64,000 nt of DNA from Streptomyces coeruleorubidus (lineage in GTDB: Bacteria; Actinomycetota; Actinomycetes; Streptomycetales; Streptomycetaceae): NCBI RefSeq assembly GCF_028885415.1, contig NZ_CP118527.1:7688001-7752000 (forward strand). Direction: 5' to 3'. Below are positions 15,597 to 63,701 of the stretch, piece after piece. The stretch's first letter is position 1, and each line of letters begins with the position of its first letter. Position numbers and translations under genes: made by a program. The notes beneath the pieces were generated by a model that was given only the letters and a program-made list of their open reading frames with translations, made no database searches and was not told the origin of the DNA.

Positions 15597-15621
15597 TCCC
15601 GGCGGCCTGCCCCCCGACCCG

Positions 15622-49580: not shown

Positions 49581-50501
49581 TCAGTCCCGGGCGCCGAAGA
49601 CCTGGACGCCCGCTCCCACACCAGCCTCGGAGTAGTCGTGGAAGCCGCGCCCGGACTTCCGGCCGAGCAGACCTGCCTCCACCATGCGCAGCAGCAGGGG
49701 AGGCGGGGCGTGCTGCGGGTCCTTGAAGTCGGCGTACATCGCCTCGGCGATGGCGGTGAGGGTGTCCAGGCCGATCAGGTCGGCCAGGCTCAGCGGGCCC
49801 ATGGGGTGGGCGCAGCCGAGGACCATGCCGGTGTCGATGTCCTCCGCGCAGGCATGGCCGGACTCCAGCATCCGGATCGCGGAGAGCAGGTAGGGCACCA
49901 GCAGGGCGTTCACCACGAACCCGGCCCGGTCCTGGGCACGGATGACCTTCTTGCCCAGCGCCTGCGTGACGAAGTCCTCGGCACGGGCCTGTGCCTGATG
50001 GGCCGTCAGCAGTGAGGGGACGATCTCCACGAGCTCCAGCACCGGCACCGGGTTGAAGAAGTGGACCCCGATCACCTGGTGCGGGCGTGCGGTGGCCATG
50101 CCCAGTTTCATGATGGGGAGGGAGGAGGTGTTCGAGGCGAGCAGCGCGTCCTCGCGGGTGACGACCCGGTCCAGCTCGGCGAACAGCTCGACCTTGACCT
50201 TCTCGTCCTCCGTCGCCGCCTCCACCACCAGGTCCCGGTCGGCCAGTTCCGCCAGGTGCGTGGTGACCCGCACCCGGTCGAGGACGGCGTCGCGTTCCGT
50301 CACGGAGAGCTTGCCGCGCCGTACGCCGCGCTCCAGCGAAGCGGCGATCCGGGACCGGCCGGCCCCGGCCGCGCCGGCGTGCACCTCGTGCACCACCACG
50401 TCCAGCCCGGCCCGGGCGCAGACCTCGGCGATGCCCGCACCCATCAGGCCGCAGCCGACGACCCCGACCCGGCGGATGCCGGGCCCTGGCGCATCGCTCA
50501 C
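49581..50501 (-). CDS. 3-hydroxyacyl-CoA (3-hydroxybutyryl-CoA) dehydrogenase
   Basis: Encodes about 306 aa from a GTG at 50501 that overlaps the preceding gene's stop (GTGA). The NAD-binding motif VGVVGCGLMGAGIAEVCARA is followed by NTSSLPIMKL and VIGVHFFNPVPVLELVEIVP, which carries the catalytic His with Glu nearby, and DRAGFVVNALLVPYL. It oxidises 3-hydroxyacyl-CoA to 3-ketoacyl-CoA. It is the last gene of the operon and supplies a beta-oxidation step after the acyl-CoA dehydrogenase; a separate hydratase and thiolase are not in the window. Confidence 0.9.
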   Translation of the reverse strand: MSDAPGPGIRRVGVVGCGLMGAGIAEVCARAGLDVVVHEVHAGAAGAGRSRIAASLERGVRRGKLSVTERDAVLDRVRVTTHLAELADRDLVVEAATEDEKVKVELFAELDRVVTREDALLASNTSSLPIMKLGMATARPHQVIGVHFFNPVPVLELVEIVPSLLTAHQAQARAEDFVTQALGKKVIRAQDRAGFVVNALLVPYLLSAIRMLESGHACAEDIDTGMVLGCAHPMGPLSLADLIGLDTLTAIAEAMYADFKDPQHAPPPLLLRMVEAGLLGRKSGRGFHDYSEAGVGAGVQVFGARD

Positions 50502-51688
50502 CGGAACGCCGCCTGGCCCGTCAGTGCCTGCCCGATCATCAGGGTGTGCATCTCCACGGTGCCCTCGTAGGTGAGGATCGACTCCAGGTTGTTGGCGTGC
50601 CGGATCACCGGGTACTCCAGCGAGATGCCGTTGGCGCCGAGGATCGTCCGGGCGGTCCGGCAGATCTCCAATGCGGTACGGGTGTTGTTGAGCTTGCCGT
50701 GACTGACCTGCTCGGGGCGAAGTCCGCGGTCGTCCTTGATGCGGCCGAGGTGGAAGGCGAGCAGCGTGCCCTTGGCCAACTCCACCGACATGTCGGTGAG
50801 TTTGGCCTGGGTCAGCTGGAAGGAGCTGATCGGGCGGCCGAACTGGACGCGGTCGCCGGCGTAGGCCAGGGCGGTCCGGAAAGCCGACCGGGCGGCGCCC
50901 ATCGCGCCCCACGCGATGCCGTAGCGCGCCTCGTTGAGGCAGGACAGCGGCCCGCGAAGACCCCGTACCTCCGGCAGCACGGCGGATCCGGGCAGTCGTA
51001 CCGAATCCAGCACGAGCTCGCTGGTCACCGAGGCCCTCAGGGACATCTTGTGCTTGATCGCGGGGGCGGAGAAACCCGGGGTGTCGGTCGGGACGACGAA
51101 GCCGCGCACGCCGTCGTCCGTACGGGCCCAGACGACGGCCACGTCGGCCACCGATCCGTTGGTGATCCACATCTTGCGCCCGTCGAGGACCCAGTCGTCG
51201 CCGTCACGGCGGGCCGCGGTGCGCATGCTGCCCGGGTCGGAGCCGGAGTCGGGCTCGGTGAGTCCGAAGCAGCCGATCGCGGTCCCTGCCGCGAGGCGCG
51301 GCAGCCACTCCTCCTTCTGCTCCTCCGAACCGAAGGCGTGGATCGCGTACATGGCCAGCGAGCCCTGGACCGAGACCAGGGAGCGCAGTCCGGAGTCGGT
51401 CGCCTCCAGTTCCAGGCAGGCGAGACCGTAGTCGACGGCGCTCATGCCCGCGCAGCCGTAGCCCTCCAAGTGCATGCCCAGCAGGCCGAGTTCGCCGAGT
51501 TCCTTGGTCAGGCCACGGATGTCCTCGATCGCGCCCTGCTCGAACCAGTCGGCGATGTGGGGCTCCACGCGCCGGTCGCAGAACGTGCGGACGGCATCGC
51601 GGACGGCGCGTTCGTCCGGGGTCAGCAGGCTGTCGAGTTCGACGAGGTCGAGAGGGTCGGCCGGGCGTGGGGCGTGCTGGGCGTGCAT
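50498..51688 (-). CDS. Acyl-CoA dehydrogenase, glutaryl-CoA dehydrogenase-like
   Basis: Encodes 396 aa. FAD-binding segments are CFGLTEPDSGSDPGSM and VLDGRKMWITNG, and QFGRPISSFQLTQAKLTDMS lies in the C-terminal helical domain. The catalytic Glu lies in ILTYEGTVEMHTLMIG, at the position of the glutaryl-CoA dehydrogenase base. The overall pattern is closest to GcdH. If so, it may dehydrogenate (and possibly decarboxylate) a dicarboxylyl-CoA formed from the cleaved ring; that step is inferred. Confidence 0.88.
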   Translation of the reverse strand: MHAQHAPRPADPLDLVELDSLLTPDERAVRDAVRTFCDRRVEPHIADWFEQGAIEDIRGLTKELGELGLLGMHLEGYGCAGMSAVDYGLACLELEATDSGLRSLVSVQGSLAMYAIHAFGSEEQKEEWLPRLAAGTAIGCFGLTEPDSGSDPGSMRTAARRDGDDWVLDGRKMWITNGSVADVAVVWARTDDGVRGFVVPTDTPGFSAPAIKHKMSLRASVTSELVLDSVRLPGSAVLPEVRGLRGPLSCLNEARYGIAWGAMGAARSAFRTALAYAGDRVQFGRPISSFQLTQAKLTDMSVELAKGTLLAFHLGRIKDDRGLRPEQVSHGKLNNTRTALEICRTARTILGANGISLEYPVIRHANNLESILTYEGTVEMHTLMIGQALTGQAAFR

Positions 51689-51783
51689 CAGGGGTCTCCA
51701 GGGTTCCGAAGGCTACGAGATGAACAGGCCGCCGGTCAGGGGGGTACCGGCGGCCTCCGGCTGGTGGGAGGCCGCCGGGTCGC

Positions 51784-51838
51784 TCACGAGGCGGCGGTCG
51801 GGCTGATGACGGTCACGAGGCGGCGGTCGGGCTGATGA
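51784..51838. repeat. 26-bp direct repeat over the MDR gene stop codon
   Basis: A 26-bp unit beginning TCACGAGGCGGCGGTCGGGC and ending TGATGA occurs at 51784-51809 and 51813-51838, separated by CGG. The second copy is the end of the minus-strand dehydrogenase gene, including its stop (51813-51815), so the gene's 3' end is duplicated downstream. Confidence 0.9.
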
Positions 51839-52931
51839 TGAAGTTGCTGAATCCGCCGTTGCGCCGGGCGAAGCCGCCGATGGCGTCGTTGACCTGTTCC
51901 AGCGGGAAGACCTGGTGCTCCAGCGGTCCGAGGTCCAGCAGACCGGCCTCCACCATGTCCGCCATGGCCTGGCCCTCGCCGGAGGTGAACCAGGCCGATC
52001 CGATCAGCCGCAGCTGCTGGTCCATCATCCGGTGGATGTCGACGGGCAGATCGCCGGCGACCGCGCCGATGTTCACCGCGATGCCCCCGCGTGCCATCGC
52101 CCGCATGCCGGCCAGGAACGTCTCGTGCGGGGCGCCCGGGCCGAGCGCGTCGATGTAGATGTCGGCGCCGTAGCCGTCGGTCTCCTCACGGACCCAGTCG
52201 TCGAGCGGGCCGTCGTCCAGGGCGTGCAGCCGCAGGCGTCCGTCGGCGAGCTTGCCGACCTGGTCGAGCAGGCCCTTGTCGCGACCGGTGCCGTAGACGT
52301 GGGTCAGGCCCATGGCGGGGGCGAGGAGTGCGGCGCCGATGCCGAGGGTGCCGCTGATGCCGTTGACCAGGATCGTCTTGCCCGGGCCGGCCCCGGCCTT
52401 GCGGAGGGCGGAGTACATGGTGCCGAGGTAGCCGAAGCGGGCCGCCGCGTTGAACGACAGCGCGTCCGGCAGCTTCACCAGGGAGTACGCGGGCGCCACC
52501 ATGTACTCGGCGAGGCCGCCCTGGTAGCGGTCCAGCAGGTCCAGGGCCGTCGGTGAAAAGCCGAAATATCCGGCGAAGGCGTAGCTGGCGCAGTTGATCG
52601 AGTCGCCGTTGCGACAGGACCGGCACGAGCCGCAGGAGCGGCCCGGGTTGACGTACACCCGGTCGCCCGGCTTGAACGCCTGGACACCCGGGCCGACGGA
52701 CTCCACCACACCCGCCGGGTCGAGACCGAAGATCGCCGGCAGGGTCGGCAGCGGGCTGTGCGGGAACCAAGTCGTCCACATGTTCAGGATGTTGGCGAGG
52801 TTCGGAACGATGTTGACGGCGTGGACGGCCACGCGGACGTCACCGGGGCCGGGCTCGGGAACGGGCAGTTCCTCGATCCTCATCGGCTCGCCGACGGCGT
52901 GCATCCGCGCGGCTCGCATGGTCGCACTCAT
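51813..52931 (-). CDS. MDR-family zinc-type oxidoreductase lacking catalytic zinc ligands
   Basis: Encodes 372 aa. The N-terminal GroES-like domain includes GDRVYVNPGRSCGSCRSCRN, whose cysteines match the structural-zinc lobe of alcohol dehydrogenases. The usual catalytic-zinc pair (Cys near residue 40 and the GHE motif) is replaced by VNIVPN and GLDPAG. NAD(P) binding is indicated by ILVNGISGTLGIGAALLA. It may therefore act as a zinc-independent quinone- or enoyl-reductase-like enzyme. It lies in the operon after the CoA ligase gene, 98 bp apart, with three 12-bp tandem repeats (52942-52977) and GAGGAG in its leader. Confidence 0.82.
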   Translation of the reverse strand: MSATMRAARMHAVGEPMRIEELPVPEPGPGDVRVAVHAVNIVPNLANILNMWTTWFPHSPLPTLPAIFGLDPAGVVESVGPGVQAFKPGDRVYVNPGRSCGSCRSCRNGDSINCASYAFAGYFGFSPTALDLLDRYQGGLAEYMVAPAYSLVKLPDALSFNAAARFGYLGTMYSALRKAGAGPGKTILVNGISGTLGIGAALLAPAMGLTHVYGTGRDKGLLDQVGKLADGRLRLHALDDGPLDDWVREETDGYGADIYIDALGPGAPHETFLAGMRAMARGGIAVNIGAVAGDLPVDIHRMMDQQLRLIGSAWFTSGEGQAMADMVEAGLLDLGPLEHQVFPLEQVNDAIGGFARRNGGFSNFIISPTAAS

Positions 52932-52941
52932 GGCGTCTCCT

Positions 52942-52977
52942 CGGGTTCGGCTTCGGGTTCGGCTTCGGGTACGGCTG
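52942..52977. repeat. 12-bp tandem triplicate in the MDR gene leader
   Basis: CGGGTTCGGCTT occurs at 52942-52953 and 52954-52965, with a near copy CGGGTACGGCTG at 52966-52977. It lies between the CoA ligase stop (53029) and the MDR start (52931), just upstream of the ribosome site on the minus strand. Confidence 0.8.
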
Positions 52978-53028
52978 GGGGAGACGGCGCCAACGGTGGC
53001 GCGGCCTCTGGGAGTTGTGGAGGGTGGG

Positions 53029-54483
53029 TCAGTTGTCCAGCAGCGTCGTCAGCCGCGCGCGCTGCAGCTTTCCGGTGGCCCCGCGGGGCAGGGCGGGTAC
53101 GACGCACAGCCGCCGGGGCCACTTGTGCCGGGCGAGCCTGCCGTCGAGGTGGGCACGGATGCCGTCCAGGGTGGGGTCGCCGGAGTCGGTGACCAGGAAG
53201 GCGGTCACCAGCTCGCCCCAGACCGGGTCCGGAGCCCCGGAGACCGCGACTTCGACGACACCTGGGAAGTCGGCGAGCGCGTTCTCGACCTCGGCGGGAT
53301 CGACGTTCTCCCCGCCGGTGATGATGGTGTCCTTGAGCCGCCCGACCACCGAGAGCCTGCCCTCCGCGTCGAACAGCCCCCGGTCCCCGGTGTGGAACCA
53401 GCCCTCGCGGTCGGTCACGGCCATTGGCCCGGCAGCCGTCCAGTAGTCGGCGGCCACCGACGGCCCGCGCACCCAGATCTCGCCGGGTGTGTCCGGCGGG
53501 GCGGGCGACCCGGCCGCGTCCACGACCCTCAACTCGACCTGCGGGACGGGTGCTCCGGTGGAGTCGGCCGGCTCGTCGGGCGCGGAGTACGTCACCCCGG
53601 CCGCGGTCTCGGTCAGGCCGTAGGAGTTGACCACGCCGACCCCGCGGGCCCGGAACTGCTCGCGGGTGGCGGTCTGGGCGGGTGAGCCGCCGGACAGGAT
53701 CCACCGCAGGGTGTCCAGGTCCTGGCTGCCGAACCGGGGGTGGCGGGCCAGCAGGGCGGACATGGCCGGTACGGCGAAGGCGCAGGTGACCTTGTGGTCG
53801 CGGACCAGGTCGACGAACAGGTCCGGGTCGAAGCACGGGGCCAGGATCACCGTGCCGCGCCTCGCCCAGGTGTACTGCGGAAGCCCGCCCAGTACGGCGA
53901 CATGCGCCAGCGGGGTGGAGACGAGCGCGGTGTCGTCCGCGCCGAAGGGCAGCCGCGCCAGCCCGCCCACCATGCTCCAGTACAGGTTGTCGTGGGTCAG
54001 TGCGACGCCCTTGGGACGGCCGGAGGTGCCGGACGTGAACGCGATGATCGCGATGTCGGAGCCGACCGGGGTGGCGTGCGCGACCGCCTCGGGTCCCTCG
54101 TCCTCCTCGGGATTCAGGTCCTCCCAGGCCAGACGGAGACCGGAGACCGCGGGAAACGTCTCGTCGGCGACCAGGGCCGTCGGGCCGGTCTCCTCGCACA
54201 CGACGGCGAGTTCGCCCTCGGTCACCTGCGGGTGCAGCGGCACGAGCACCGCCCCCATCCGCGTCACCGCGAACAGCGTGATCAACGCCTCGGGCCGGGG
54301 CGCCCCCTGCATCACCACCCGATCGCCCTTGCGCACCCCGAACTTGTCGAGCCGGGCGACGGTGCGCCGTACCGCGAGGTCGAGTTCGGCGTAGGTCCAG
54401 GTCCGGTCCTCGAAGACGAGGGCGGTTCGGTGGCCGGCCTCGGCCGCGCTGACGGCGAGGTGCGCGCCGAAGGTGCTGGTCAT
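53029..54483 (-). CDS. AMP-forming acyl-CoA / aryl-CoA ligase
   Basis: Encodes 484 aa. ANL-superfamily motifs are IIAFTSGTSGRPKGVALTH (P-loop), NSYGLTETAAGVTY, GWFHTGDRGLFDAEGRLSVV, and the C-terminal catalytic Lys in LPRGATGKLQRARL. It activates a carboxylic acid with ATP and CoA. In this cluster the acid could be the original substrate or a ring-cleavage acid; the acceptor pocket does not tell. The ATG overlaps the upstream reductase stop by four bases. Confidence 0.9.
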   Translation of the reverse strand: MTSTFGAHLAVSAAEAGHRTALVFEDRTWTYAELDLAVRRTVARLDKFGVRKGDRVVMQGAPRPEALITLFAVTRMGAVLVPLHPQVTEGELAVVCEETGPTALVADETFPAVSGLRLAWEDLNPEEDEGPEAVAHATPVGSDIAIIAFTSGTSGRPKGVALTHDNLYWSMVGGLARLPFGADDTALVSTPLAHVAVLGGLPQYTWARRGTVILAPCFDPDLFVDLVRDHKVTCAFAVPAMSALLARHPRFGSQDLDTLRWILSGGSPAQTATREQFRARGVGVVNSYGLTETAAGVTYSAPDEPADSTGAPVPQVELRVVDAAGSPAPPDTPGEIWVRGPSVAADYWTAAGPMAVTDREGWFHTGDRGLFDAEGRLSVVGRLKDTIITGGENVDPAEVENALADFPGVVEVAVSGAPDPVWGELVTAFLVTDSGDPTLDGIRAHLDGRLARHKWPRRLCVVPALPRGATGKLQRARLTTLLDN

Positions 54484-55721
54484 GCTCTCACCTCCGCGGT
54501 GCGTCTGGCGCGGGCGAGCGCGCCGAGGGTCGTCCCCGCCAGGTCGGCGGCCGACACCGGCGCTTTCCCCTCCAGCAGCCGACGGGCGGCCAGGTGCTCG
54601 GCGGGCCAGTTCAGCGTCTCGACAGCCACCAGCCGGTCCGCGCGGAAGGCGTACGCGGCCAGCCGCTCAGGGGATTCGCCCGTCACCAGCAGCACTTCGT
54701 CGGAAGGGGAGCGCAGCCCGGCGATCTGCAACTTGACGTCGCCCTGGTCGCTCCAGAACCACGGCAGGCTCTCGTACACCGCGGGTGACCCCGCGATACG
54801 GCGGCCCACCAACGCCCCCTGGTCGATGGCGTTCTGCACGGACTCCAGCCGCACCAGCCCCTCCGTGTGCGGATGCGGATGCCGGGCGCAGTCGCCGACG
54901 GCGGAGACCCGCGGATCGGTGACCGAGCGCAACTGCTCGTCCACGACCACGCCGTCGGCCACCTCCAGCCCGGCCTCCCGGGCGAGTTCGTCCCTGGGTA
55001 CGGCGCCGATGCCGTAGACCACGAGATCGGCGGGCAGAACGCCCTGCGAGGTGACGACCCGCTCGACCCGTCCCGCACCTTCCAGGGCCTGTACGGCAGC
55101 CCCGGTGAGGACCCGGACACCGGCGCGCTCGTGCCTCTCCCGCAGCCGCGGTTCCAGCTCCGGCGACACGGCCCGGCTCAGCAGCCGGTCGGCCAGTTCC
55201 ACGACGGTCACGCGGGCGCAGCGGGCCAGAGCGACCCGGGACAGCTCCAGCCCGATGAACCCGCCGCCGACGACCACCACGTCCCGGGCCGTCTCCAGCG
55301 CCCGGCCGATCGTCAGGGCGTCGTCGAGGGAGCGCAGGGCATGGACGCCGGACAACTCGGCGCCGGGGGAGGGCAACCGACGGTTGTCCGCGCCCGTCGC
55401 CAGCACCAGGTGGTCGTAGGAGAGACGGGTGCCGGCCCGGGTGAGGACCGTGCGGGCCGCGGTGTCGAGGGCGATCACATCGTCCCCGAGGCGCAGGTCG
55501 ATGTCTCGCTCGCCGTAGAAGGACTCCGGCACCAGTTCGACGCGCAGGCCGTCCGGCTCGGTGTGCGCCTTCTTCGACAACGGCGGCCGCTGGTACGGCA
55601 GATGGGGTTCCGCGGCGAACACGGTGACGGGACCGTCGTAGCCGGATGCGCGCAGCGTCGAGACGACGCTGAACCCGGCCTGTCCGCCGCCGACGACGAC
55701 CACGCCCGCTGGGCTCGTCAT
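54480..55721 (-). CDS. Ferredoxin reductase (FAD/NAD) for the P450 system
   Basis: Encodes about 413 aa from the ATG at 55721. Two Rossmann folds are visible: GVVVVGGGQAGFSVVSTLRA (FAD) and VVVVGGGFIGLELSRVAL (NAD). Others are LPYQRPPLSKK, LVLATGADNR, VSAVGDCARHPH and the reductase C-terminal segment. It resembles putidaredoxin-reductase-type proteins that pass electrons from NAD(P)H to a [2Fe-2S] ferredoxin. Four-base overlaps with the ferredoxin before it and the CoA ligase after it show tight coupling. Confidence 0.9.
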   Translation of the reverse strand: MTSPAGVVVVGGGQAGFSVVSTLRASGYDGPVTVFAAEPHLPYQRPPLSKKAHTEPDGLRVELVPESFYGERDIDLRLGDDVIALDTAARTVLTRAGTRLSYDHLVLATGADNRRLPSPGAELSGVHALRSLDDALTIGRALETARDVVVVGGGFIGLELSRVALARCARVTVVELADRLLSRAVSPELEPRLRERHERAGVRVLTGAAVQALEGAGRVERVVTSQGVLPADLVVYGIGAVPRDELAREAGLEVADGVVVDEQLRSVTDPRVSAVGDCARHPHPHTEGLVRLESVQNAIDQGALVGRRIAGSPAVYESLPWFWSDQGDVKLQIAGLRSPSDEVLLVTGESPERLAAYAFRADRLVAVETLNWPAEHLAARRLLEGKAPVSAADLAGTTLGALARARRTAEVRA

Positions 55722-56041
55722 ACCTGCTCCTCGGGCACGTGGACGACCAGTCCGTCCAGGGCGTCGGAGAGCTGGATCTGGCAGCTGAGCCGGCTGGTGG
55801 GCCGGCGTTCGGCGGCGGTGAAGTCGAGCATCTCGTCCTCGACGTCGCCCGGCGGGCCCACCAGCTCGGACCGGTCCTCGGCGACGTAGACGTGGCAGGT
55901 GGCGCAGGAGGCGTTGCCTCCGCACTCGGCGACGATGCCCTCGACGCCGTTGGCGACGGCCGCCTGCATGAGGACGGTCCCCGACTCGGCGGTGACCTTG
56001 CGTTCGGTCCCGTCGGGCGACCGGAAGATGACGGTGGGCAT
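55718..56041 (-). CDS. [2Fe-2S] ferredoxin, adrenodoxin/putidaredoxin type
   Basis: Encodes 107 aa from the ATG at 56041. Cluster ligands are seen as ECGGNASCATCHVYV (CX5CX2C) and the fourth Cys in RLSCQIQL about 37 residues later, the adrenodoxin-type spacing. EDEMLDFTAAERRPTSRLSC is the usual acidic interaction region. It carries electrons from the reductase to the adjacent cytochrome P450, giving a complete class I system. Confidence 0.92.
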   Translation of the reverse strand: MPTVIFRSPDGTERKVTAESGTVLMQAAVANGVEGIVAECGGNASCATCHVYVAEDRSELVGPPGDVEDEMLDFTAAERRPTSRLSCQIQLSDALDGLVVHVPEEQV

Positions 56042-56064
56042 GAAGTTCTCCCGATGGGGACGGC

Positions 56065-57264
56065 TCAGGGGGCTTGCCAGGTGACGTGCAGCGAGGTGAG
56101 TCCGCGGAACACCCAGCCGTCCATGCGGTCGTCTGCGCCTTCGACGGGGCGCAGTCCCTTCAGACGGCTGAAGACGAGGGGCCAGGCGATCGCGCTGACC
56201 TCGTGGCGCGCTACCCACGCGCCCATGCAGAAGTGCGGTCCGCCGCCGAAGGCGAGATGCGGGCGGTGCGGGCGGTCCAGGTCGAACTCGTCGGCCCGCT
56301 CGAAGACCGACTCGTCGCGGTTGCCGGAGGCGATGACGAGGGCGACGCGGCTGCCGGCGGGCAGAGTGACGCCGGCGATCTCGTGGTCCTCGGTGAGCTG
56401 GCGGGGATACATGCCGATCGGTGAGATCCAGCGGGCGGTCTCCTCGAAGACCCGCTTCCAGCACGCCGGGTCCCTGAGCACCCGCTCCAGCGCCTCGGGG
56501 CGTCGCAGCAGCGCCCACGCGCCGACGCCGAAGACGTCGCGCGGCTCGTTGACGCCTCCGCCGATGATGACCTTGACGTTGTTCTGGATCTCGGCGAGTT
56601 CCACCGGCTCGGCCGCGTGGACCATGGAGGAGATCACCGAGCCGTCGGGCTCGCGGCGCACGGCCTCGGCCGTCTCGGCCACCGCTTCCTCGATGGCCCG
56701 GGTCGCCTGCTCGGCGCGGAGCCAGACGTCGGGGTCGTCGGCGTAGTTGCCGTTGCCGGCCATCATCGCCCGCGACCAGTCGGCGATGTCGTCGGCGCTC
56801 GCGTTGCGCAGGCCCAGCACCAGGGCCAGGTTGGCGGCGGCGAGCGGCTCCGCGAAGTCGGCGATGAGGTCGGCCTCGCCGCGGCCCTCGATGCGGTCGA
56901 GCAGTTCGTGCGCGGTGCGCTCGAAGGCGCCGGCCCACAGGTCGCGGACCTGGCGGGGACGGGTGGGCGGTTCGGCCGCGGCCCGCAGGCGCCGGTGCTC
57001 CGGGTCGTCCTCGCGGAGCAGGTTCGGGCCGACCGTGCGCAGCAGCAGCGACCCCTCCTCGCGGGAGCTGAACACCTCGGGGAGCTTCTCGGCGCGGACG
57101 ATGTCCTCGTACCGGGTCAGCAGATGCCGGCCGACCGACGGGACCCAGGCGAGCGGTGCGGTGCGGCGCAGCTCGGCGTAGCAGGGATACGGGTCGCGGC
57201 GCAGCTCGGCCAGGTCGAGCTCGACGACGGGCGCACCGGGTGCGGCCGTCGTCAGGACGCTCAT
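56065..57264 (-). CDS. Cytochrome P450
   Basis: Encodes about 399 aa from the ATG at 57264, which overlaps the cupin gene stop (ATGA). The haem loop is LAFGGGPHFCMGAWVARHE with the Cys ligand, the ExxR motif is FEETAR, and the I-helix reads VIIGGGVNEPRDVF. The GGxxEPRD version replaces the common AGxxT oxygen-activation motif and occurs in CYP199-like and related aromatic-acid P450s. With the ferredoxin and reductase downstream it forms a self-sufficient monooxygenase set, probably hydroxylating or O-demethylating the cluster's substrate. Confidence 0.92.
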   Translation of the reverse strand: MSVLTTAAPGAPVVELDLAELRRDPYPCYAELRRTAPLAWVPSVGRHLLTRYEDIVRAEKLPEVFSSREEGSLLLRTVGPNLLREDDPEHRRLRAAAEPPTRPRQVRDLWAGAFERTAHELLDRIEGRGEADLIADFAEPLAAANLALVLGLRNASADDIADWSRAMMAGNGNYADDPDVWLRAEQATRAIEEAVAETAEAVRREPDGSVISSMVHAAEPVELAEIQNNVKVIIGGGVNEPRDVFGVGAWALLRRPEALERVLRDPACWKRVFEETARWISPIGMYPRQLTEDHEIAGVTLPAGSRVALVIASGNRDESVFERADEFDLDRPHRPHLAFGGGPHFCMGAWVARHEVSAIAWPLVFSRLKGLRPVEGADDRMDGWVFRGLTSLHVTWQAP

Positions 57265-57791
57265 GATGTGCCGCCCGCGCCGATCAGGACGAAGAACGCC
57301 GTGGCGGGCTCGGTGCCGTTGTTGCGCCAGGCATGGCGGGTGGCGTTCTGCACGACGATGTCGCCGGGCCCCAGGACCGCGGTCTCGCCGCCGTCGAGGT
57401 CCAGGACCAGCTCGCCGGAGAGCACCACGCCGTAGTCCACGGTGGGCGTCGTGTGCATGCCCGGGTTGTCCGGTTCGAAGAGTTCGGCGAGACCGGGGCT
57501 GAACTGCAGCTGCTCGGCCGCCGCGGCGGCCGGGTCCCAGCCGGGGTCGGCGTAGACACTGGCCGGCGGGAAGGTGACGGTCAGCGCGACCGTCTCGCCC
57601 GGCGCGGGCACGAAGGACTCCAGGGATGCCGTCGGATCGGCCGACGGGACGGCGGGGGCCGCCGTGTTCCACACTAGGGAGCGGGCGAAGCCGGGGGTGT
57701 GGACGGACCGACTGGTGCGCGGCGGCTCGCCGTCACTGACGATCACGGGCTTGCCGCTCGGGCTGACACCGGTGACGACTCGACGGACCAT
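57261..57791 (-). CDS. Cupin-domain protein
   Basis: Encodes 176 aa after AAGGGAGA. The cupin core is visible in the second half: MHTTPTVDYGVVLSGELVLD and VLGPGDIVVQNATRHAWRN. His residues in the second motif could bind a metal, but the first motif lacks the usual HxH. It is first in its transcript, under the operator-bearing promoter at 57821-57849. It might be a small dioxygenase or isomerase, or a ligand-binding accessory; the function is unknown. Confidence 0.85.
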   Translation of the reverse strand: MVRRVVTGVSPSGKPVIVSDGEPPRTSRSVHTPGFARSLVWNTAAPAVPSADPTASLESFVPAPGETVALTVTFPPASVYADPGWDPAAAAAEQLQFSPGLAELFEPDNPGMHTTPTVDYGVVLSGELVLDLDGGETAVLGPGDIVVQNATRHAWRNNGTEPATAFFVLIGAGGTS

Positions 57792-57820
57792 GATTCTCTC
57801 CCTTGAGAAACCAACCTACT

Positions 57821-57849
57821 GTTAGATGCTTGACGGTAAAGGGTCTAAC
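57821..57849 (-). promoter_or_regulatory. Operator and promoter of the cupin-P450 operon
   Basis: A 29-bp element has GTTAGA and TCTAAC as outer inverted arms and CTTGACGGTAAAG in the centre. It matches the element at 59944-59972 at 23 of 29 positions. Read on the minus strand it contains TTTACC (-35-like), and TAGGTT (-10-like) follows 16 bp later, leading to the cupin start at 57791. The neighbouring MarR gene is the likely cognate regulator. Confidence 0.72.
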
Positions 57850-57918
57850 TGTTTTCGGCGGTCGTGCTACGGCGGCTCCGAGCACGAGTCGGTGGATGGC
57901 CGGTTTCCCGGGGCCCGG

Positions 57919-58461
57919 TCACTCCGCGGGCGGGGTCTCCTGGTGCACCAGCGTACGCAGCAGATGTACCAGCTCACTGAGCTGGTCGTCACGGAGTACG
58001 CCGGTCCAGGCACGCTCGCGCTGGGTCTGGGCCTCGATGGCCTGCCGCAGCGTCTCACGGCCCTCGGGGGTGAGCTCGACGAACAGCTGGCGGCGGTCGG
58101 ACTCGACGCGCTCGCGGGTGACCAGGCCCCGGCTCTCCAGGGTCGTCAGCGCGCTCGAGATGCTGGCGCGGGTGGATCCGGAGACCCGGCCGATGTCCTG
58201 CTGGCCGAGCGGGCCGTAGATCCACAGGGCGTTCAGGATCCGGAAGCCCGCCCAGGTCAGGCCCAGCGGCCGGTGGACGTGCTTCTCGAAGTCCTTGGTG
58301 AGCCGCGCCTCGAGACGGGTGAGGTCGGTGACCATCTCGATCGCGTCGAGGTCCCGGGGATCGGTCGTGCCCAGCTCACGATGGTGGTGGCGCAGCAACT
58401 CCGAGAACTCCCGGGTCCGGCTCGCGCCGGTGCTCCCCTTCCCGCGCACGGTGTCCGTCAC
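57919..58461 (-). CDS. MarR-family regulator of the catabolic cluster
   Basis: Encodes 180 aa. The winged HTH is clear: LGQQDIGRVSGSTRASISSA then LTTLESRGLVTRERVESDRR, with long helices on either side for dimerisation. MarR proteins usually repress until an aromatic acid or its CoA ester binds. It lies 22 bp after the FAH-family gene on the same strand, so it is part of the CMD-FAH transcript, and it is flanked on both sides by promoters bearing the same operator, suggesting autoregulation. Confidence 0.9.
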   Translation of the reverse strand: MTDTVRGKGSTGASRTREFSELLRHHHRELGTTDPRDLDAIEMVTDLTRLEARLTKDFEKHVHRPLGLTWAGFRILNALWIYGPLGQQDIGRVSGSTRASISSALTTLESRGLVTRERVESDRRQLFVELTPEGRETLRQAIEAQTQRERAWTGVLRDDQLSELVHLLRTLVHQETPPAE

Positions 58462-58483
58462 GGTCTCCCGCCCTTCCCTCTGT

Positions 58484-59332
58484 CTAGCCGGCGACGACCG
58501 GATTGACCATAGTGCCCACGCCCGTGACCTCGGTGCGCAGGATCTTGCCCTCGGTCAGGTACAGCCGCGGGGTGCGGCGGACGCCGCAGCCGGCCGGGGT
58601 GCCGGTGAAGATCAGGTCTCCCGGCTCGAACGTCACCCGCTTCGACAGCCAGGCGATCAGGGCGGGCACGGGGAAGATCAGGTCCGAGGTGCGGCCCCGC
58701 TGCACTTCGAGGTCGTCGACCCAGCCGGCCACCTCGATGTCGTCCGGGTCCTCGAACTCGTCGACGGTCACCAGGTACGGGCCGATCGGGCTGAAGGTGT
58801 CGTACGACTTCGGCAGCGTGAACTGGTTGATCGGCTTGCGCCACTGCTCGCGGCGGTCGCTGATGTCCTGCCCGGCGGTCACTCCCGCGACGTACGACCA
58901 GGCGTCCGCCTCGGAGATGTTCTTGCCGGTCCTCCCCATGATGACGACGAGTTCGGCCTCGTAGTCGACCTTGTCGTACTGCGGCTCGACCACGATGCGG
59001 TCGTAGGGGCCGACGACGGACGAGGCGAACTTCGCGAACACCGACGGCTCGTCCGGCACGGGGAGGTTGGACTCCTCGGCGTGCGCACGGTAGTTGAGGG
59101 CCACCCCGATCGCCTTGTACGGCTTGGCGACGCGGCCCAGGTCGCGCGGGTCGAACGGCTTCCAGTCCGCCTCGTCGGCACGCTCGGCGAGCGCGCGCAG
59201 CTCCTCGTGGAGGGACAGGTCGGACAGGACCTCCAGGCGCGGCTCGATCGCACCCTTGCCGGCGTCCGCGATGTCGAGGGCGCGGTCGCCCTGCACGAGG
59301 ACGGGACGGCCGGCGAGGTTGGCGAGCTTCAT
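58484..59332 (-). CDS. Fumarylacetoacetate-hydrolase-family protein
   Basis: Encodes about 282 aa from the ATG at 59332, overlapping the upstream gene's stop (ATGA). FAH-family motifs are IGVALNYRAHAEES, KVDYEAELVVIMG (metal-binding Glu residues), VAGVTAGQDISDR, the active-site loop FTLPKSYDTFSPIGP and PGDLIFTGTPAGCG. Members hydrolyse, hydrate or decarboxylate ring-cleavage products such as 2-oxo-dienoates. Downstream of an extradiol dioxygenase a hydratase or decarboxylase role is likely. Confidence 0.9.
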   Translation of the reverse strand: MKLANLAGRPVLVQGDRALDIADAGKGAIEPRLEVLSDLSLHEELRALAERADEADWKPFDPRDLGRVAKPYKAIGVALNYRAHAEESNLPVPDEPSVFAKFASSVVGPYDRIVVEPQYDKVDYEAELVVIMGRTGKNISEADAWSYVAGVTAGQDISDRREQWRKPINQFTLPKSYDTFSPIGPYLVTVDEFEDPDDIEVAGWVDDLEVQRGRTSDLIFPVPALIAWLSKRVTFEPGDLIFTGTPAGCGVRRTPRLYLTEGKILRTEVTGVGTMVNPVVAG

Positions 59333-59907
59333 GCGGGCACTTCCTTCTGGTCGGGCTGCGGGAGGGGGAGTGCGAGGTCGCCCTCCGTCCGGACGCCGAG
59401 CGTGTTGATCACGGTGGCGATGGTCAGGTACTGGCCGACGGTGTAGAGGACGTCGATGACCTGCTCGGTGCTCAGGTGCGCGGTCAGCCGGTTCCACAGC
59501 TCGTCGTCGACGCCCTGCCGGTCGACGAGCGAGTCGGTGGCGGTGAGCAGCAGCCGGTCGAGGTCGTCGAGCCCGTCCCAGGTTCCGGCCGCGGCGGCCA
59601 GGATCGTCTCGTCGGTGAGGCCGGCGCGGCGGGCGATGCGGACGTGCTGGTCCCACTCGTACGCGGCCCGCGCCCGGGCGGCGATCCGCAGGATCATCAG
59701 CTCCCGGGACCTCAGCGGCAGGGTGTTCTTGCCCAGCACGTGGTTGCTGAAGACGAGGTAGCGGCGCAGCGCGTCCTCGTGGTGGGCCAGGGTCGCCCAG
59801 ATCGCGTAGATCCGGCCGTCCTGGTCGCGGTACGGCGCCAGCGACGCCAGTGTCTTCTCCTGTAGATCCGCCTCGTCGACGGGCTGCAGGCGGGGCTTCT
59901 CCGGCAT
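59329..59907 (-). CDS. Carboxymuconolactone-decarboxylase-family protein
   Basis: Encodes 192 aa. The core MILRIAARARAAYEWDQHVRIARRAGLTDE is given here as two parts: MILRIAARARAAYEW and DQHVRIARRAGLTDE. These match the CMD/AhpD-like helical fold. The CxxC pair of AhpD is absent, so peroxidase activity is not expected. It is first in the minus transcript, starting under the promoter in 59944-59972, followed by FAH and MarR. It might be a decarboxylase or an isomerase-like helper; the specific reaction is unknown. Confidence 0.85.
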   Translation of the reverse strand: MPEKPRLQPVDEADLQEKTLASLAPYRDQDGRIYAIWATLAHHEDALRRYLVFSNHVLGKNTLPLRSRELMILRIAARARAAYEWDQHVRIARRAGLTDETILAAAAGTWDGLDDLDRLLLTATDSLVDRQGVDDELWNRLTAHLSTEQVIDVLYTVGQYLTIATVINTLGVRTEGDLALPLPQPDQKEVPA

Positions 59908-59943
59908 CGGAGTCCTCCTCGGCTCGATGACGGCAACGTATTC

Positions 59944-59981
59944 GTCAGAGCCTTGACCGTCAAGAGTCTAACAAATATCGT
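59944..59981. promoter_or_regulatory. Divergent promoter with shared 29-bp operator
   Basis: The 29-bp element at 59944-59972 contains the perfect inverted repeat CTTGACCGTCAAG and a TCTAAC end, and matches the element at 57821-57849. Plus strand: TTGACC (59953-59958), 17 bp, TATCGT (59976-59981), only seven bases before the ATG of the dioxygenase gene. Minus strand: TTGACG, 17 bp, TACGTT, towards the CMD gene. A regulator bound here would cover both -35 regions. Confidence 0.75.
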
Positions 59982-59988
59982 CCTCGGC

Positions 59989-60873
59989 ATGACGATCCAG
60001 AGCCTTGGTTACGTAGGGATCGGCGCGCCCGATCCGACAGCGTGGGCGGAGTACGCCCGCACGGTGATCGGCCTCGCGGTCGAACCCGGGGCTGCGTCCG
60101 ACAGCGGCTCCGCCCCGGGCGAGGGGCCCGTGCGCTATCGCCTGCGGATGGACCAGCATCCGTTCCGCATGTGGCTGACGGAGGCGGAGACCGGTGGTGT
60201 GACGGTCATCGGCTGGGAGGTCCGCGACGGGGCGGCGATCGACGCGATGACGGTGCGGCTCAAGGAGGCCGGCGTCGACGTCACGGCGGGCACCGAGGAG
60301 GAGTGCCTGGACCGCCAGGTGGCCCGCATGGTGCACTTCAGCGGCCCGCTCGGTATCCGCACCGAGCTGTTCTGCGGCCGCCGCCTGGCCCCCAGCCAGT
60401 TCGTGTCACCGCTCGGCGTCGACTTCGTGACCGGCGAGCAGGGGCTCGGGCACGTCGTGATGAAGACGCCGCACGTCCAGGAGGCCGTCGACTTCTACTG
60501 CGACGTCCTGGGCTTCCGGCTCAGCGACACCGCCGACTACCCCTGGGGCACCTTCTACTTCCTCGGCTGCAACCCGAGACACCACAGCGTCGCCTTCATC
60601 CGCTCGTACAAGAACGAGGGCACCCACCACATCCTGTGCGAGGTGACCAGTCCGGAGGAGGTCGGCCGCGCCCTCGACCGCACGCGCGAGCACGACGTCG
60701 AACTCATGGCCACGCTCGGCAAGCACGCAAACGACGGAATGTTCTCGTTCTACATGAAGTCGCCCGCCGGTTTCGGCATCGAGATCGGCACGGGCGGCGT
60801 GCAGGTCGACGAGAGCACCTGGGTCAGCCGCACCTACACGGCCGACATCTGGGGTCACCACCCGGTTCCGTAG
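59989..60873 (+). CDS. Type I extradiol (BphC-like) ring-cleavage dioxygenase
   Basis: Encodes about 294 aa from the ATG at 59989. Two VOC domains are present: MTIQSLGYVGIGAPDPTAWA at the start and GLGHVVMKTPHVQEAVDFYC in the middle. The Fe(II) ligands can be placed at His155 (GLGHVVM), His213/214 (GTHHILCEV) and Glu265 (FGIEIGTGG), with Tyr255 (FSFYMKSP) near the site. Such enzymes cleave catechols next to the diol using Fe(II) and O2. It lacks a Shine-Dalgarno and its promoter ends seven bases upstream, so translation may be leaderless. Confidence 0.9.
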   Translation: MTIQSLGYVGIGAPDPTAWAEYARTVIGLAVEPGAASDSGSAPGEGPVRYRLRMDQHPFRMWLTEAETGGVTVIGWEVRDGAAIDAMTVRLKEAGVDVTAGTEEECLDRQVARMVHFSGPLGIRTELFCGRRLAPSQFVSPLGVDFVTGEQGLGHVVMKTPHVQEAVDFYCDVLGFRLSDTADYPWGTFYFLGCNPRHHSVAFIRSYKNEGTHHILCEVTSPEEVGRALDRTREHDVELMATLGKHANDGMFSFYMKSPAGFGIEIGTGGVQVDESTWVSRTYTADIWGHHPVP

Positions 60874-60922
60874 CCCGACTTCGCGTCCCCCGACCCCACT
60901 GAAAGAAAGCGGGCCGTATCCC

Positions 60923-62503
60923 ATGCTTCTCGAAAGCTACCTGCAGGACACCTGGGTCGCGCCATCTGCCGCCGACGCGACGGCAGTTGACGTGCACGAC
61001 GCCGTCACCGGCGAGACGGTCTGCCGCGTCTCCTCCCAAGGCCTGGACCTCGCGGGCGCGTTCGACCACGCGCGCCACGCCGGGGGCCCCACGCTGCGCG
61101 CGCTGACCTTCCACCGGCGGGCCGACATCCTGGACGCGCTCGCCGCGGCCGTCCGCGCTCGCCGTGAGGAGCTGTACGTCCTCTCGACCCGCGCCGGCGC
61201 CACCCTCGACGACGCCCGCTACGACGTCGACGGCGGCATCCGCGTCCTGCGCGACTACGCGATGCGGGCACGCGCCGAACTGCCGGACGCGCCCCACCTC
61301 GTGGAAGGCCCCGCCGAACGCCTCGCCCGGGGCGAGGACTTCCTGGGCGTCCACCTCGTCAGCCCCTCCCCGGGCCTGATGCTCCAGGTGAACGCCTTCA
61401 ACTTCCCGGTGTGGGCGCCGCTGGAGAAGCTCGCCCAGGCCGTGCTGGCGGGCATGCCCAGCGTGGTGAAGCCGGCCACCCCGACCGCGTACCTCACCGA
61501 GCACCTGGTCCGGATCGTCACCGACGCCGGCGCCCTGCCGCCCGGCGCCCTGCAGATGGTCGCCGGTTCGGTGCGCCCGGCACTCGGCCTGCTCGGCGAG
61601 CAGGACGTCCTCTCCTTCACCGGCTCCGCCGCAACGGCTGAAACGCTGCGCACACACCCCAACCTGGTGGCCCGTTCCGTCCGCTTCAACGCCGAGGCCG
61701 ACTCCGTCAACGCCATCGTGCTGGCCCCGGACGTCACCCCGGGGTCCCCGCTGTTCGAGGCGTTCGTGCGCGAGGTGGTGACCGAGATGACCGTCAAGGC
61801 GGGCCAGAAGTGCACCGCGATCCGCCGCGTCCTCGTCCCCCGCGAACACGAGGCCGCAGCGCTCGACGCGATCGCCGCCGAGCTCGCCGGGGTCACCATC
61901 GGGAACCCCGCCGCACAGGGCGTGCGGATGGGGCCGGTCGTCAGCCTCGCCCAGCGCGACGACGTACGGCAGGCGGCGCGGAAGATCGCCCAGTCCGGAC
62001 GCTTCGTGCACGGCGACCCCGAGAAGGTGCGCGTGCTCGACGCCGACTCCGAACGGGGGGCGTTCCTCGACACCCTTCTCGTCTCCGCCGACCCGGACGC
62101 CGCCGCACCTCACGAGGTGGAGCCGTTCGGACCGGCCGCGACCGTGCTGGCGTACCGCGACACGGCCCACGCGACGAACCTGGTGGCGCGCGGCCGGGGC
62201 AGCCTCGCGGCCTCCGTCGTCGGCGACGACCTCGCCTGGACGACCGCCTTCGTCCAAGAGGCGGCCCCCTGGCACGGGCGACTGCACCTGCTGGACTCGA
62301 CGAACATGGCGCAGACCACCGGCCACGGATCGCCGCTTCCCGCCCTGAAGCACGGGGGCCCCGGCCGGGCCGGCGGCGGATCGGAGATGGCAGGCACCCG
62401 TGGAGTCGTGGACCTGATGCAGCGCACGGCACTGCAGGCCTCGCAACGGGTTCTCGACTCGCTGTGGAGCACCCCGTCGTCCTCGCCTGCCGACCACGCC
62501 TGA
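60923..62503 (+). CDS. Aldehyde dehydrogenase, PaaZ/BoxD-like
   Basis: Encodes 526 aa. The pattern is that of the aldehyde-dehydrogenase half of PaaZ: MLQVNAFNFPVWAPLEKLAQ, VVKPATPTAYLTE, SFTGSAATAETL, and the catalytic Cys in TVKAGQKCTAIRRVLVP. The MaoC-type hydratase half of PaaZ is absent, so it is closer to BoxD-type (dehydroadipyl-CoA semialdehyde) dehydrogenases. It follows the extradiol dioxygenase by 49 bp, so it probably oxidises the semialdehyde made by ring cleavage or one derived from it. Confidence 0.88.
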   Translation: MLLESYLQDTWVAPSAADATAVDVHDAVTGETVCRVSSQGLDLAGAFDHARHAGGPTLRALTFHRRADILDALAAAVRARREELYVLSTRAGATLDDARYDVDGGIRVLRDYAMRARAELPDAPHLVEGPAERLARGEDFLGVHLVSPSPGLMLQVNAFNFPVWAPLEKLAQAVLAGMPSVVKPATPTAYLTEHLVRIVTDAGALPPGALQMVAGSVRPALGLLGEQDVLSFTGSAATAETLRTHPNLVARSVRFNAEADSVNAIVLAPDVTPGSPLFEAFVREVVTEMTVKAGQKCTAIRRVLVPREHEAAALDAIAAELAGVTIGNPAAQGVRMGPVVSLAQRDDVRQAARKIAQSGRFVHGDPEKVRVLDADSERGAFLDTLLVSADPDAAAPHEVEPFGPAATVLAYRDTAHATNLVARGRGSLAASVVGDDLAWTTAFVQEAAPWHGRLHLLDSTNMAQTTGHGSPLPALKHGGPGRAGGGSEMAGTRGVVDLMQRTALQASQRVLDSLWSTPSSSPADHA

Positions 62504-62576: not shown

Positions 62577-63635
62577 TCAGTGGGGCGGGGGCGGCCCCAC
62601 CGAGTCGCGTACCACGACGTGCGTGCCCAGCAGCAGGTGTTCGTCGGGGGCGCCCGGCGTGTGTTCGAGGGCCGTGCGGACGGCGAGGCGGCCGAGTTCC
62701 TCGTAGGGGACGTGGACCGTCGTCAGGGCGGGGTGCAGGTCGCGGGCGAAGGGGATGTCGTCGTAGCCGGCGAGGGAGATGTCGCCGGGGACGGTCAGGC
62801 CCGCCTCGTGCAGGGCGGTGAGGGCGCCCGCCGCGACCATGTCGGTGGCGGCGACGACGGCCGTGAAGTCGAGGTTCTCCTTGAGCGCTTGCTGCATGAG
62901 GCGGTGGCCCGCGTCCCGGGTGAAGTCGCCGTGCAGGAGGAGGGACGGGTCGGGGGTCAGGCCCCGGGCCCGGTGGGCGGCGAGATAGCCGCGTTCGCGG
63001 CCCAGGGCCGTGGTGTGGTCCGTCCGACCGCCGAGGAACAGCACCCGGCGGTGGCCCTGGGCGAGGACGTGGGCGACCAGGGTGTAGGCGCCGCCCTCGT
63101 TGTCGTACTCGATGACCGTCACCGGGGCGCCGGGATCCAGTGGTGGTCTGCCGCACAGGACCAGGCGGGAGCCGGCCGAGGCGAGGGAGTCGGCCATGCG
63201 GTGGGTGCGTTCGCGGTACTCGGGGGTGTCGGCGGTGCCGCCGACCAGGATCACGGCGGTGGCGCGCTGGGCACGCATCATCTCGACGAACTCCAGCTCG
63301 TGCCGGACGTCGCCCTCCGTGCTGCACACCAGGCAGAGGTGGCCGAGGCGGGTCGCCTCCCGTTCGACGCCGTGGGCCATGTGCGCGAACGACGGGCCGG
63401 TGATGTCCTCCAGCACGAACGCGAGCGTGGGCGTGCCGACGCCCGCGATGGCCTTCGCCCGCGCGTCCGCGACGTAGTCCAGCTCGCGGACCGCCCGCAT
63501 GACGCGCCCGCGCGTCGCCGCGCTCACCGGGTACACGCCGCCGAGCACCCGTGACACCGTCGACGCCGAGACCCCCGCGCGGGCCGCCACGTCCCGGATG
63601 GTGCTGCGGTTCGCGTCCCCGCTCTTCCTCGTCAT
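62577..63635 (-). CDS. LacI-family transcriptional regulator, paralogue of the 14.2-kb gene
   Basis: Encodes about 352 aa from the ATG at 63635. The HTH (STIRDVAARAGVSASTVSRV) and sensor motifs (AVILVGGTADTPEY, IEYDNEGGAY, SLAGYDDIPFARDL, LTTVHVPYEELG, LLLGTHVVVRDSVG) align motif for motif with the LacI gene at 14184-15275. Divergence in the sensor middle suggests a different ligand. The AACCGGTT box at 63702-63709, 66 bp upstream, fits autoregulation. It faces away from the aromatic cluster and is probably unrelated to it. Confidence 0.9.
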   Translation of the reverse strand: MTRKSGDANRSTIRDVAARAGVSASTVSRVLGGVYPVSAATRGRVMRAVRELDYVADARAKAIAGVGTPTLAFVLEDITGPSFAHMAHGVEREATRLGHLCLVCSTEGDVRHELEFVEMMRAQRATAVILVGGTADTPEYRERTHRMADSLASAGSRLVLCGRPPLDPGAPVTVIEYDNEGGAYTLVAHVLAQGHRRVLFLGGRTDHTTALGRERGYLAAHRARGLTPDPSLLLHGDFTRDAGHRLMQQALKENLDFTAVVAATDMVAAGALTALHEAGLTVPGDISLAGYDDIPFARDLHPALTTVHVPYEELGRLAVRTALEHTPGAPDEHLLLGTHVVVRDSVGPPPPH

Positions 63636-63701
63636 GACTGCCTCGTCTCTCCCGGGCGCCGGTCCGCACCCACCCCGCGGGAACTGCGGCAACACCATGG
63701 C

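Follow-up and report, generated by a model that had tools for sequence, protein, structure and literature searches.

How do soil bacteria deal with the coumarins that plant roots release? Roots exude scopoletin and its catechol forms, which have roles in iron mobilisation, microbe suppression and rhizosphere shaping (PMC12445806, PMC13181038). Glucosidases of Streptomyces scabiei liberate scopoletin from scopolin (PMC9426481), and in a root fungus scopoletin is converted to esculetin, the authors being undecided on whether an enzyme is involved (PMC12445806). XenA enzymes of Pseudomonas sp. NyZ480 transform scopoletin and esculetin, without growth on either, and the complete NyZ480 gene set occurs in 23 of 51,445 genomes, all Pseudomonadota (PMC13181038). 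In Pseudomonas mandelii 7HK4, the hcdABC products are a 62-kDa flavin hydroxylase, a dioxygenase of type I class II and a hydrolase (PMC6222606), and those of hcdDEFG a PF06684-type protein, an alcohol-dehydrogenase-type medium-chain dehydrogenase/reductase (MDR), a cupin and an FMN reductase. HcdE acts as a reductase on 7-hydroxycoumarin and, at a rate 1.6-fold lower, on 6,7-dihydroxycoumarin (esculetin) (PMC7913881). Here we describe a cassette of 13 genes at positions 49581-62503 of a 64,000-nucleotide window (C1:7688001-7752000) of the 9.41-Mb, one-contig genome of Streptomyces coeruleorubidus. Taken as a whole, and with moderate confidence, we read it as an inducible pathway that breaks down a 6,7-dioxygenated methoxycoumarin of the scopoletin type, with a glutaryl-CoA finish.

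All families named for this interval in an initial annotation, made from the same DNA, were found there, together with a single MarR regulator. In coordinate order the minus strand carries a 3-hydroxyacyl-CoA dehydrogenase (HAD), an acyl-CoA dehydrogenase, the MDR, a CoA ligase, ferredoxin reductase, ferredoxin, cytochrome P450 and cupin, then MarR, then an FAH- and a CMD-family protein; the extradiol dioxygenase and an aldehyde dehydrogenase follow on the plus strand. The genes are tightly packed, with four-base overlaps in five pairs (HAD/acyl-CoA dehydrogenase 50498-50501, CoA ligase/reductase 54480-54483, reductase/ferredoxin 55718-55721, P450/cupin 57261-57264, FAH/CMD 59329-59332). The features are:

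49581..50501, minus strand: 3-hydroxybutyryl-CoA dehydrogenase-like HAD (NF005875, 481 bits, cut-off 319; Pfam 3HCDH), predicted to convert 3-hydroxybutyryl-CoA to acetoacetyl-CoA
50498..51688, minus strand: glutaryl-CoA dehydrogenase-like acyl-CoA dehydrogenase; its top PDB matches are glutaryl-CoA dehydrogenases, including human 1siq
51813..52931, minus strand: HcdE-like MDR, predicted from zinc-position residues and neighbourhoods to be an NADPH-dependent coumarin C3=C4 reductase
53029..54483, minus strand: CoA ligase (AMP-binding and C-terminal domains), predicted to act on an aryl propionate or glutarate
54480..55721, minus strand: ferredoxin--NAD(P) reductase serving the P450 (Pyr_redox_2 and Reductase_C; ATGA overlap with the ferredoxin)
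55718..56041, minus strand: [2Fe-2S] ferredoxin (Fer2), its start corrected from the sequence to ATG 56041
56065..57264, minus strand: cytochrome P450, predicted from PDB similarity to be an aromatic O-demethylase
57261..57791, minus strand: HcdF-like cupin of uncertain role, proposed to open the lactone
57821..57849, minus strand: operator copy 1, the near-palindrome GTTAGA-n17-TCTAAC upstream of the cupin-P450 operon
57919..58461, minus strand: MarR-family regulator (Pfam MarR)
58484..59332, minus strand: FAH-family protein, predicted acylpyruvate hydrolase (FAA_hydrolase, 207 bits; nearest PDB entries 6v77 and 1gtt, HpcE)
59329..59907, minus strand: CMD-family protein, predicted beta-keto acid decarboxylase (PF02627, 44 bits)
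59944..59972, minus strand: operator copy 2, between CMD and dioxygenase, with 0 mismatches to the consensus
59989..60873, plus strand: two-domain type I extradiol dioxygenase, HsaC/BphC-like (2zi8, 212 bits; 294 aa)
60923..62503, plus strand: BoxD/PaaZ-like semialdehyde dehydrogenase, over two NCBIfam cut-offs

The dioxygenase most likely starts at ATG 59989 and not at TTG 59953, because MTIQSLGY is present in 10 of 10 aligned rows (the window's included) and the TTG falls inside the operator. For the CoA ligase, none of the 25 NCBIfam families listed, of 108, reached its cut-off. A LacI regulator (62577-63698) and a large open reading frame (ORF; 47086-49476) flank these genes. We place both outside the cassette because their matches in ten named relatives are weak or partial (LacI, 31% in L016; pieces of the ORF in L013 and L018; L numbers denote loci and G numbers genomes).

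Read from gene families, their order and conservation, the operator and residue patterns, the substrate, the order of steps, each reaction and the role of MarR at the operator would be as follows. Scopoletin, the most likely substrate among the methoxycoumarins, would pass through esculetin and 3-(2,4,5-trihydroxyphenyl)propionate to CO2, pyruvate and glutaryl-CoA. The P450, with its own ferredoxin and reductase, would strip the O-methyl group, releasing formaldehyde and leaving a catechol, either esculetin itself or its dihydro or ring-opened counterpart. The MDR would reduce the coumarin C3=C4 bond with NADPH, and the lactone would open, through the cupin or spontaneously, to the trihydroxyphenylpropionate. 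Reduction may precede demethylation, because 3-(2,4-dihydroxy-5-methoxyphenyl)propanoate is also reported in the root-fungus study (PMC12445806). The dioxygenase would then cleave between C5 and C6 and the BoxD-like dehydrogenase oxidise the aldehyde; the beta-keto acid would be decarboxylated by the CMD or FAH protein, and FAH would split the acylpyruvate into pyruvate and glutarate or glutaryl-CoA. The ligase would attach CoA, and glutaryl-CoA dehydrogenase and 3-hydroxybutyryl-CoA dehydrogenase would lead into central metabolism, both transcripts being under MarR through a shared operator. If the trihydroxyphenylpropionate is cut at C5-C6, the product oxidised and decarboxylated and the acylpyruvate then hydrolysed, CO2, pyruvate and glutarate should result; the balance, C9 = CO2 + C3 + C5, fits in that it would give each gene a step.

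What points to a coumarin? At the catalytic-zinc positions, where the mycothiol enzyme has C/H/E, the MDR has V/L/D, as do all 21 MDRs compared, and it retains the four structural cysteines. In the window this zinc-less MDR and a cupin of the matching family belong to a single operon, and such a cupin adjoins the MDR, or lies within a few genes of it, in 13 of the 20 other MDR loci (L036, L051, L054, L081, L085, L088, L091, L093, L094, L096-L099). The MDR tree groups the window with L051, L054 and L081 (support 1.0); a wider group at 0.99 adds L036, L097, L098, L091, L092 and L099, its inner nodes being weaker (0.31, 0.73). A Variovorax locus, L099, packs into 8 kb a counterpart of every one of the seven hcd genes (MhpA-like hydroxylase, MDR, cupin, FMN_red, a 172-aa VOC protein, FAH and PF06684), a count that presumes HcdB to be the small VOC and HcdC the FAH protein, our own readings of the sizes in PMC6222606. 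We took the L099 MDR (63.3%) as a proxy for HcdE. Locus L081, from another family of the class, combines counterparts of hcdA-F with cupin, P450, ferredoxin, reductase and MDR in one row. By family, then, the MDR and cupin appear to match HcdE-HcdF of P. mandelii. P450 and alcohol-dehydrogenase superfamily membership alone was excluded as substrate evidence because both superfamilies are large, and the folds nearest to the cupin (3es1, of unknown function, and fungal StrC) do not settle its function. On these grounds a coumarin substrate seems quite likely. The initial annotation had proposed an aromatic or alicyclic acid; since a coumarin lactone is what the MDR-cupin pair and the genes around it suggest, an aromatic acid is probably not what the cassette takes up as substrate. 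Counterparts of the flavin hydroxylase HcdA and the small dioxygenase HcdB are absent from the 13 genes; judged by gene content, therefore, the cassette would share the mode of its first reduction with the hcd pathway without being a member of it.

In alignment with 1han (BphC), the dioxygenase retains the residues at the metal and acid-base positions, which we take to be the 2-His-1-Glu iron site and the acid-base His/Tyr, and it thus has both residue sets of a type I two-domain extradiol dioxygenase; this upholds the extradiol cleavage of a catechol-type ring originally proposed. The aldehyde dehydrogenase exceeds the NCBIfam cut-offs for PaaZ (597.1 versus 562.8) and for 3,4-dehydroadipyl-CoA semialdehyde dehydrogenase (566.7 versus 444). 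Known BoxD/PaaZ-type enzymes use CoA thioesters. The BoxD-like dehydrogenase and the CoA ligase occur together in the window, L051 and L054, and neither is present in eight other stretches tested (seven loci, as L089 adjoins L109). A CaiB-type CoA transferase is encoded in three of those seven loci (L036, L086, L089), and other ligases (30-39%) occur in L092, L094 and L099, loci beyond this test. Because BoxD/PaaZ-type enzymes act on CoA thioesters and the two genes co-occur, CoA loading ahead of ring cleavage appears slightly more likely than loading after it. The acyl-CoA dehydrogenase retains the motifs SGxRSxxSVQ and YEGT in alignment with human 1siq. We take YEGT to hold the catalytic Glu and SGxRS the substrate-binding Arg of human glutaryl-CoA dehydrogenase, and the cassette protein has both residues. 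Its genome encodes two further copies, 74% and 66% identical, the cassette copy being the third. A CoA-dependent finish thus found support, but where open-ended beta-oxidation had been suggested, the glutaryl-CoA dehydrogenase-like enzyme makes glutaryl-CoA to crotonyl-CoA the more likely end. As the initial annotation had stated, the 13-gene cluster contains no hydratase or thiolase; with a finish through crotonyl-CoA these could come from ordinary metabolism (no search was made for them).

Is the P450 a demethylase? Its closest PDB entry is 6g71 (349.6 bits, 43.0% identity, 166/386), Arthrobacter CYP1232A24 of papaverine metabolism; neither CYP1232A24 nor CYP1232 appeared in any paper turned up by our literature search. 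Next come 8u09, presumably a syringol O-demethylase, and many GcoA-type entries (about 176 bits for GcoA), some labelled 'aromatic O-demethylase'. The predicted P450 structure is of low confidence (pLDDT 30.9, 11 close homologues). In relatives, a gene for S-(hydroxymethyl)mycothiol dehydrogenase follows HAD at the cassette end. Scored in 13 of the 15 close relatives (the contigs of L012 and L013 end before that stretch), it is full-length in eight (L009, L010, L018, L063-L067) and partial in two: residues 1-184 in L014 and, in L011, the locus nearest to the window, residues 16-93 (fragments at 17299-17531) directly after a short HAD. The profile hidden Markov model of the mycothiol family gave 692.5 bits for L009 and 684.7 for L018 (cut-off 512.9). 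The S. coeruleorubidus genome has an intact copy elsewhere (9068497-9069573). Overall, we judge the P450 more likely to be an O-demethylase than a ring hydroxylase, and O-demethylation itself to be likely.

Several observations stand beside these. A second gene resembling mycothiol formaldehyde dehydrogenase lies at 641529-642601 of the S. coeruleorubidus genome, matched as two overlapping pieces in different open frames. In L051 mere fragments of the mycothiol dehydrogenase gene remain at the cassette end (15579-15938), and that locus also has a luciferase-like monooxygenase. Among 15 plasmid P450 places listed, an MDR lies within 2 kb in four (H12-H15, by coordinates; L036 and L098 were read), and three that were read have none (H1-H3). 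In the Rhodococcus plasmid loci L033 and L034, genes for P450 relatives (52% and 47%), ferredoxin and reductase line up with those for FAH, NTF2-like, CMD and alpha/beta hydrolase proteins; L033 has an annotated protocatechuate 3,4-dioxygenase where L034 has a hypothetical protein, which suggests a different ring-opening route.

The genes had been proposed to form one pathway under one regulator. The cluster is indeed conserved in other actinomycetes: its order is kept, with small exceptions, in 15 other Streptomyces genomes (L009-L018, L063-L067), and nowhere among these are the genes scattered. The ten named relatives (L009-L018) are all Streptomyces, two more matches being distant fragments of metagenome-assembled genomes (MAGs; 29% and 32%). 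Order and orientation are as in the window except that the L012 contig stops after the MDR, the HAD match of L011 covers 166 of 306 residues before the mycothiol dehydrogenase pieces, and L016 has an extra MhpA-like hydroxylase gene between acyl-CoA dehydrogenase and HAD. At E <= 1e-100 the P450 was found in 10 of 246 sampled genomes of the genus, including its own; three of these were already among the named relatives (L012, L015, L017), five gave new cassette copies (L063-L067) and G107 a divergent one (L051). The window and the 15 close loci are at most 97.4% identical pairwise (L063/L064), and ORFs beyond the cassette vary among eight loci compared. A divergent cassette in G832 (L054) has HAD, CoA ligase, MDR, acyl-CoA dehydrogenase, cupin, MarR, FAH, CMD, dioxygenase and aldehyde dehydrogenase and lacks P450, ferredoxin and reductase; no such P450 was found in the G832 genome at E <= 1e-60. 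Close relatives of the cupin, P0004 (88%) and P0024 (82%), are named from Streptomyces turgidiscabies (a MAG) and S. caniscabiei, from which we infer that the cassette may occur in plant-associated species too.

A 29-bp near-palindrome, GTTAGA-n17-TCTRAC, lies before the cupin-P450 operon (57821-57849) and in the divergent dioxygenase/CMD promoter (59944-59972), the latter copy containing the core TTGACGGTCAA. At two or fewer mismatches these are the only two places in the whole 9.41-Mb genome, and a reversed control pattern gave 0; as the pattern was derived from both sites, the count tests uniqueness and not discovery. The core TTGACGGTCAA is present at the CMD/dioxygenase site of 15/15 close relatives, and the full pattern is matched there with two or fewer mismatches in 14 (four in L012). 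In L051 a single weak copy (five mismatches) follows MarR; a pattern scan saw none in L081 or L036. Since both transcripts, that of the P450 and that of the dioxygenase, share an operator found nowhere else in the genome at that threshold, the cassette is by this pattern one regulon, with MarR the obvious candidate for a ligand-responsive regulator of both. Chance assembly of unrelated genes is rejected by the order in 15 relatives together with this genome-unique operator, and scattered or separately regulated transcripts by the operator's being shared, given that its pattern derives from these two sites.

A number of observations weigh against a scopoletin-type pathway or parts of it. HcdE was inactive in vitro on 7-methoxycoumarin (PMC7913881). 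The link to HcdE itself (MW310254) is one of family and neighbourhood only. HcdF is without a demonstrated role, the lactone of 7-hydroxy-dihydrocoumarin opening spontaneously. Our reading of HcdB as the 20-kDa protein and a small VOC, and of HcdC as FAH-like, is from size: bands of 62, 31 and 20 kDa are given for HcdA, HcdB and HcdC in that order, yet HcdC is called a 31.2-kDa protein (PMC6222606). A matching cupin was not found near the MDR in 7 of the 20 other loci (L082-L084, L086, L087, L089, L092); in the stretches seen, MDR-cupin pairs occur without a demethylase (for example L091, L093) and P450 relatives without an MDR-cupin pair (L033-L035). Glutaryl-CoA dehydrogenase relatives (47-66% identity) are present in only six of the 20 (L036, L051, L054, L085, L086, L089); the other 14 have none or distant ones (27-33%: L084, L094, L099). 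Among these 14 are the hcd- and mhp-type loci, which are known or expected to end in succinate, but L087 and L096, otherwise L089-like, belong there too. The mycothiol dehydrogenase gene is absent beside the window's cassette and in L015-L017, and L054 gives no support for a joint loss of P450 and this gene, because the contig ends right after HAD and the genome has two full-length copies elsewhere (C14, C16). The cupin-side operator is matched at four or fewer mismatches in just 5 of 15 relatives (L011, L016, L017, L063, L064), at 5-6 in five, and not within six in five; L054 showed no operator in the scan. Finally, the cassette contains no transporter.

Could the P450 instead serve lignin-derived compounds, demethylating a guaiacol- or vanillate-like methoxyphenol or methoxybenzoate to a catechol for meta cleavage, with MDR and cupin as accessories? 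GcoA and other aromatic O-demethylases are among its nearest solved relatives, formaldehyde dehydrogenase genes are neighbours in other cassettes, and genes resembling syringate/vanillate demethylases, although below curated cut-offs, lie near the MDR-cupin pair of L088. We nevertheless consider this rather unlikely: the dioxygenase is of the HsaC/BphC type, and neither the glutaryl-CoA dehydrogenase nor the presence of MDR and cupin beside the P450 in operon order in another family would be explained. The 43.0% identity to 6g71 would suggest a pathway for a plant alkaloid of the veratryl type, papaverine for example, but the papaverine link found no confirmation in the papers that our literature search turned up, the 13 genes include no amine-handling family, and MDR and cupin would again go unexplained; we regard it as very improbable.

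A coumarin pathway with another substrate pattern (herniarin or a daphnetin type, for example), or with the P450 as a ring hydroxylase, would agree with L081, where the P450 set coexists with an HcdA-like hydroxylase and a small VOC protein, and with the MhpA-like hydroxylase of L016. This we hold to be unlikely. The 13 genes include no flavin hydroxylase, which requires the P450 to yield a catechol directly; glutarate should arise only from 2,4,5-trihydroxyphenylpropionate cut at C5-C6; and the formaldehyde dehydrogenase neighbours argue for demethylation. A daphnetin-type substrate is specifically disfavoured, since its cleavage products should give no glutarate. The scopoletin-type pathway is therefore the reading we retain.

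Related loci may serve other coumarins. The S. coeruleorubidus genome has a second one at about 1262800-1283500 (L089, L109), with an MDR (52%), HpaD-like dioxygenase, CMD, FAH, HAD, glutaryl-CoA dehydrogenase (66%), CaiB, an enolase paralogue, a 2-hydroxyacid dehydrogenase, an APH-type kinase and LacI. The enolase paralogue, 2-hydroxyacid dehydrogenase and kinase would turn hydroxypyruvate into phosphoenolpyruvate, as expected if an 8-oxygenated (fraxetin-type) coumarin splits to hydroxypyruvate and glutarate; the locus is predicted to take such coumarins to hydroxypyruvate and glutaryl-CoA. Parts of this set recur in L085, L086, L087 and L096. In L088 (G1018, 2170-13416) the MDR-cupin pair lies near two syringate/vanillate O-demethylase-like genes, one of them short and neither reaching its curated cut-off, and near a gene for a LigK-type aldolase that passes one of its cut-offs; there the place of the P450 may be taken by a folate-type demethylase. 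The Rhodococcus opacus plasmid loci L092 and L095, in which an MDR (64%) and a cysteine hydrolase accompany genes for p-hydroxycinnamoyl-CoA hydratase/lyase, maleylacetate reductase and dioxygenase, may represent yet another route for coumarins.

Should the scopoletin reading hold, it would put named genes to a bacterial scopoletin O-demethylase and to esculetin ring cleavage, explain how some soil bacteria can feed on an iron-mobilising, antimicrobial root compound, and make MDR, cupin and P450 together a marker to look for in rhizosphere genomes. In cassette-bearing strains scopoletin catabolism could follow glucosidase release from scopolin. Beyond the works cited we recognised no bacterial cluster for scopoletin or esculetin catabolism in a search mainly by title and abstract start that covered few subscription papers. 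We suggest only tentatively, and with some doubt, that the mineralisation of scopoletin and esculetin has here its first complete gene set, which would also be the first from an actinomycete, with CoA probably on before the ring is cut and a second, fraxetin-type locus in the same genome.

How does the cassette compare with known systems? The initial annotation saw no exact match to a classic pathway, and box, paa, hpa and mhp are rejected here because their defining genes are absent from the 13. With the box (benzoyl-CoA) and paa (phenylacetyl-CoA) pathways it shares a BoxD/PaaZ-type semialdehyde dehydrogenase, but it would open the ring with an extradiol dioxygenase, and the 13 genes include no BoxAB epoxidase, BoxC lyase or PaaABCE. 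Like the P450 O-demethylases of the GcoAB/AgcA type, its P450 is predicted to give a catechol and formaldehyde; unlike them, it has a separate ferredoxin and a separate FAD reductase, and GcoA scores about 176 bits against 349.6 for 6g71. The XenA-CouC-Mhp route of NyZ480 likewise has pyrone reduction followed by extradiol cleavage of an arylpropionate, but its XenA is of the OYE family and mhp genes finish the route (PMC13181038), whereas mhpB and mhpC are not among the 13 genes. The hcd pathway of 7HK4 shares most: an HcdE-family reductase and HcdF-family cupin, extradiol cleavage of a trihydroxyphenylpropionate and then a hydrolase (PMC7913881, PMC6222606). Unlike hcd, the cassette has a P450 module where hcd has the ipso-hydroxylase HcdA, an HsaC-like dioxygenase of two domains where HcdB, as we read the paper, is about 20 kDa, no HcdD or HcdG family among its 13 genes and, in addition, a BoxD-like aldehyde dehydrogenase, CoA ligase, glutaryl-CoA dehydrogenase and HAD.

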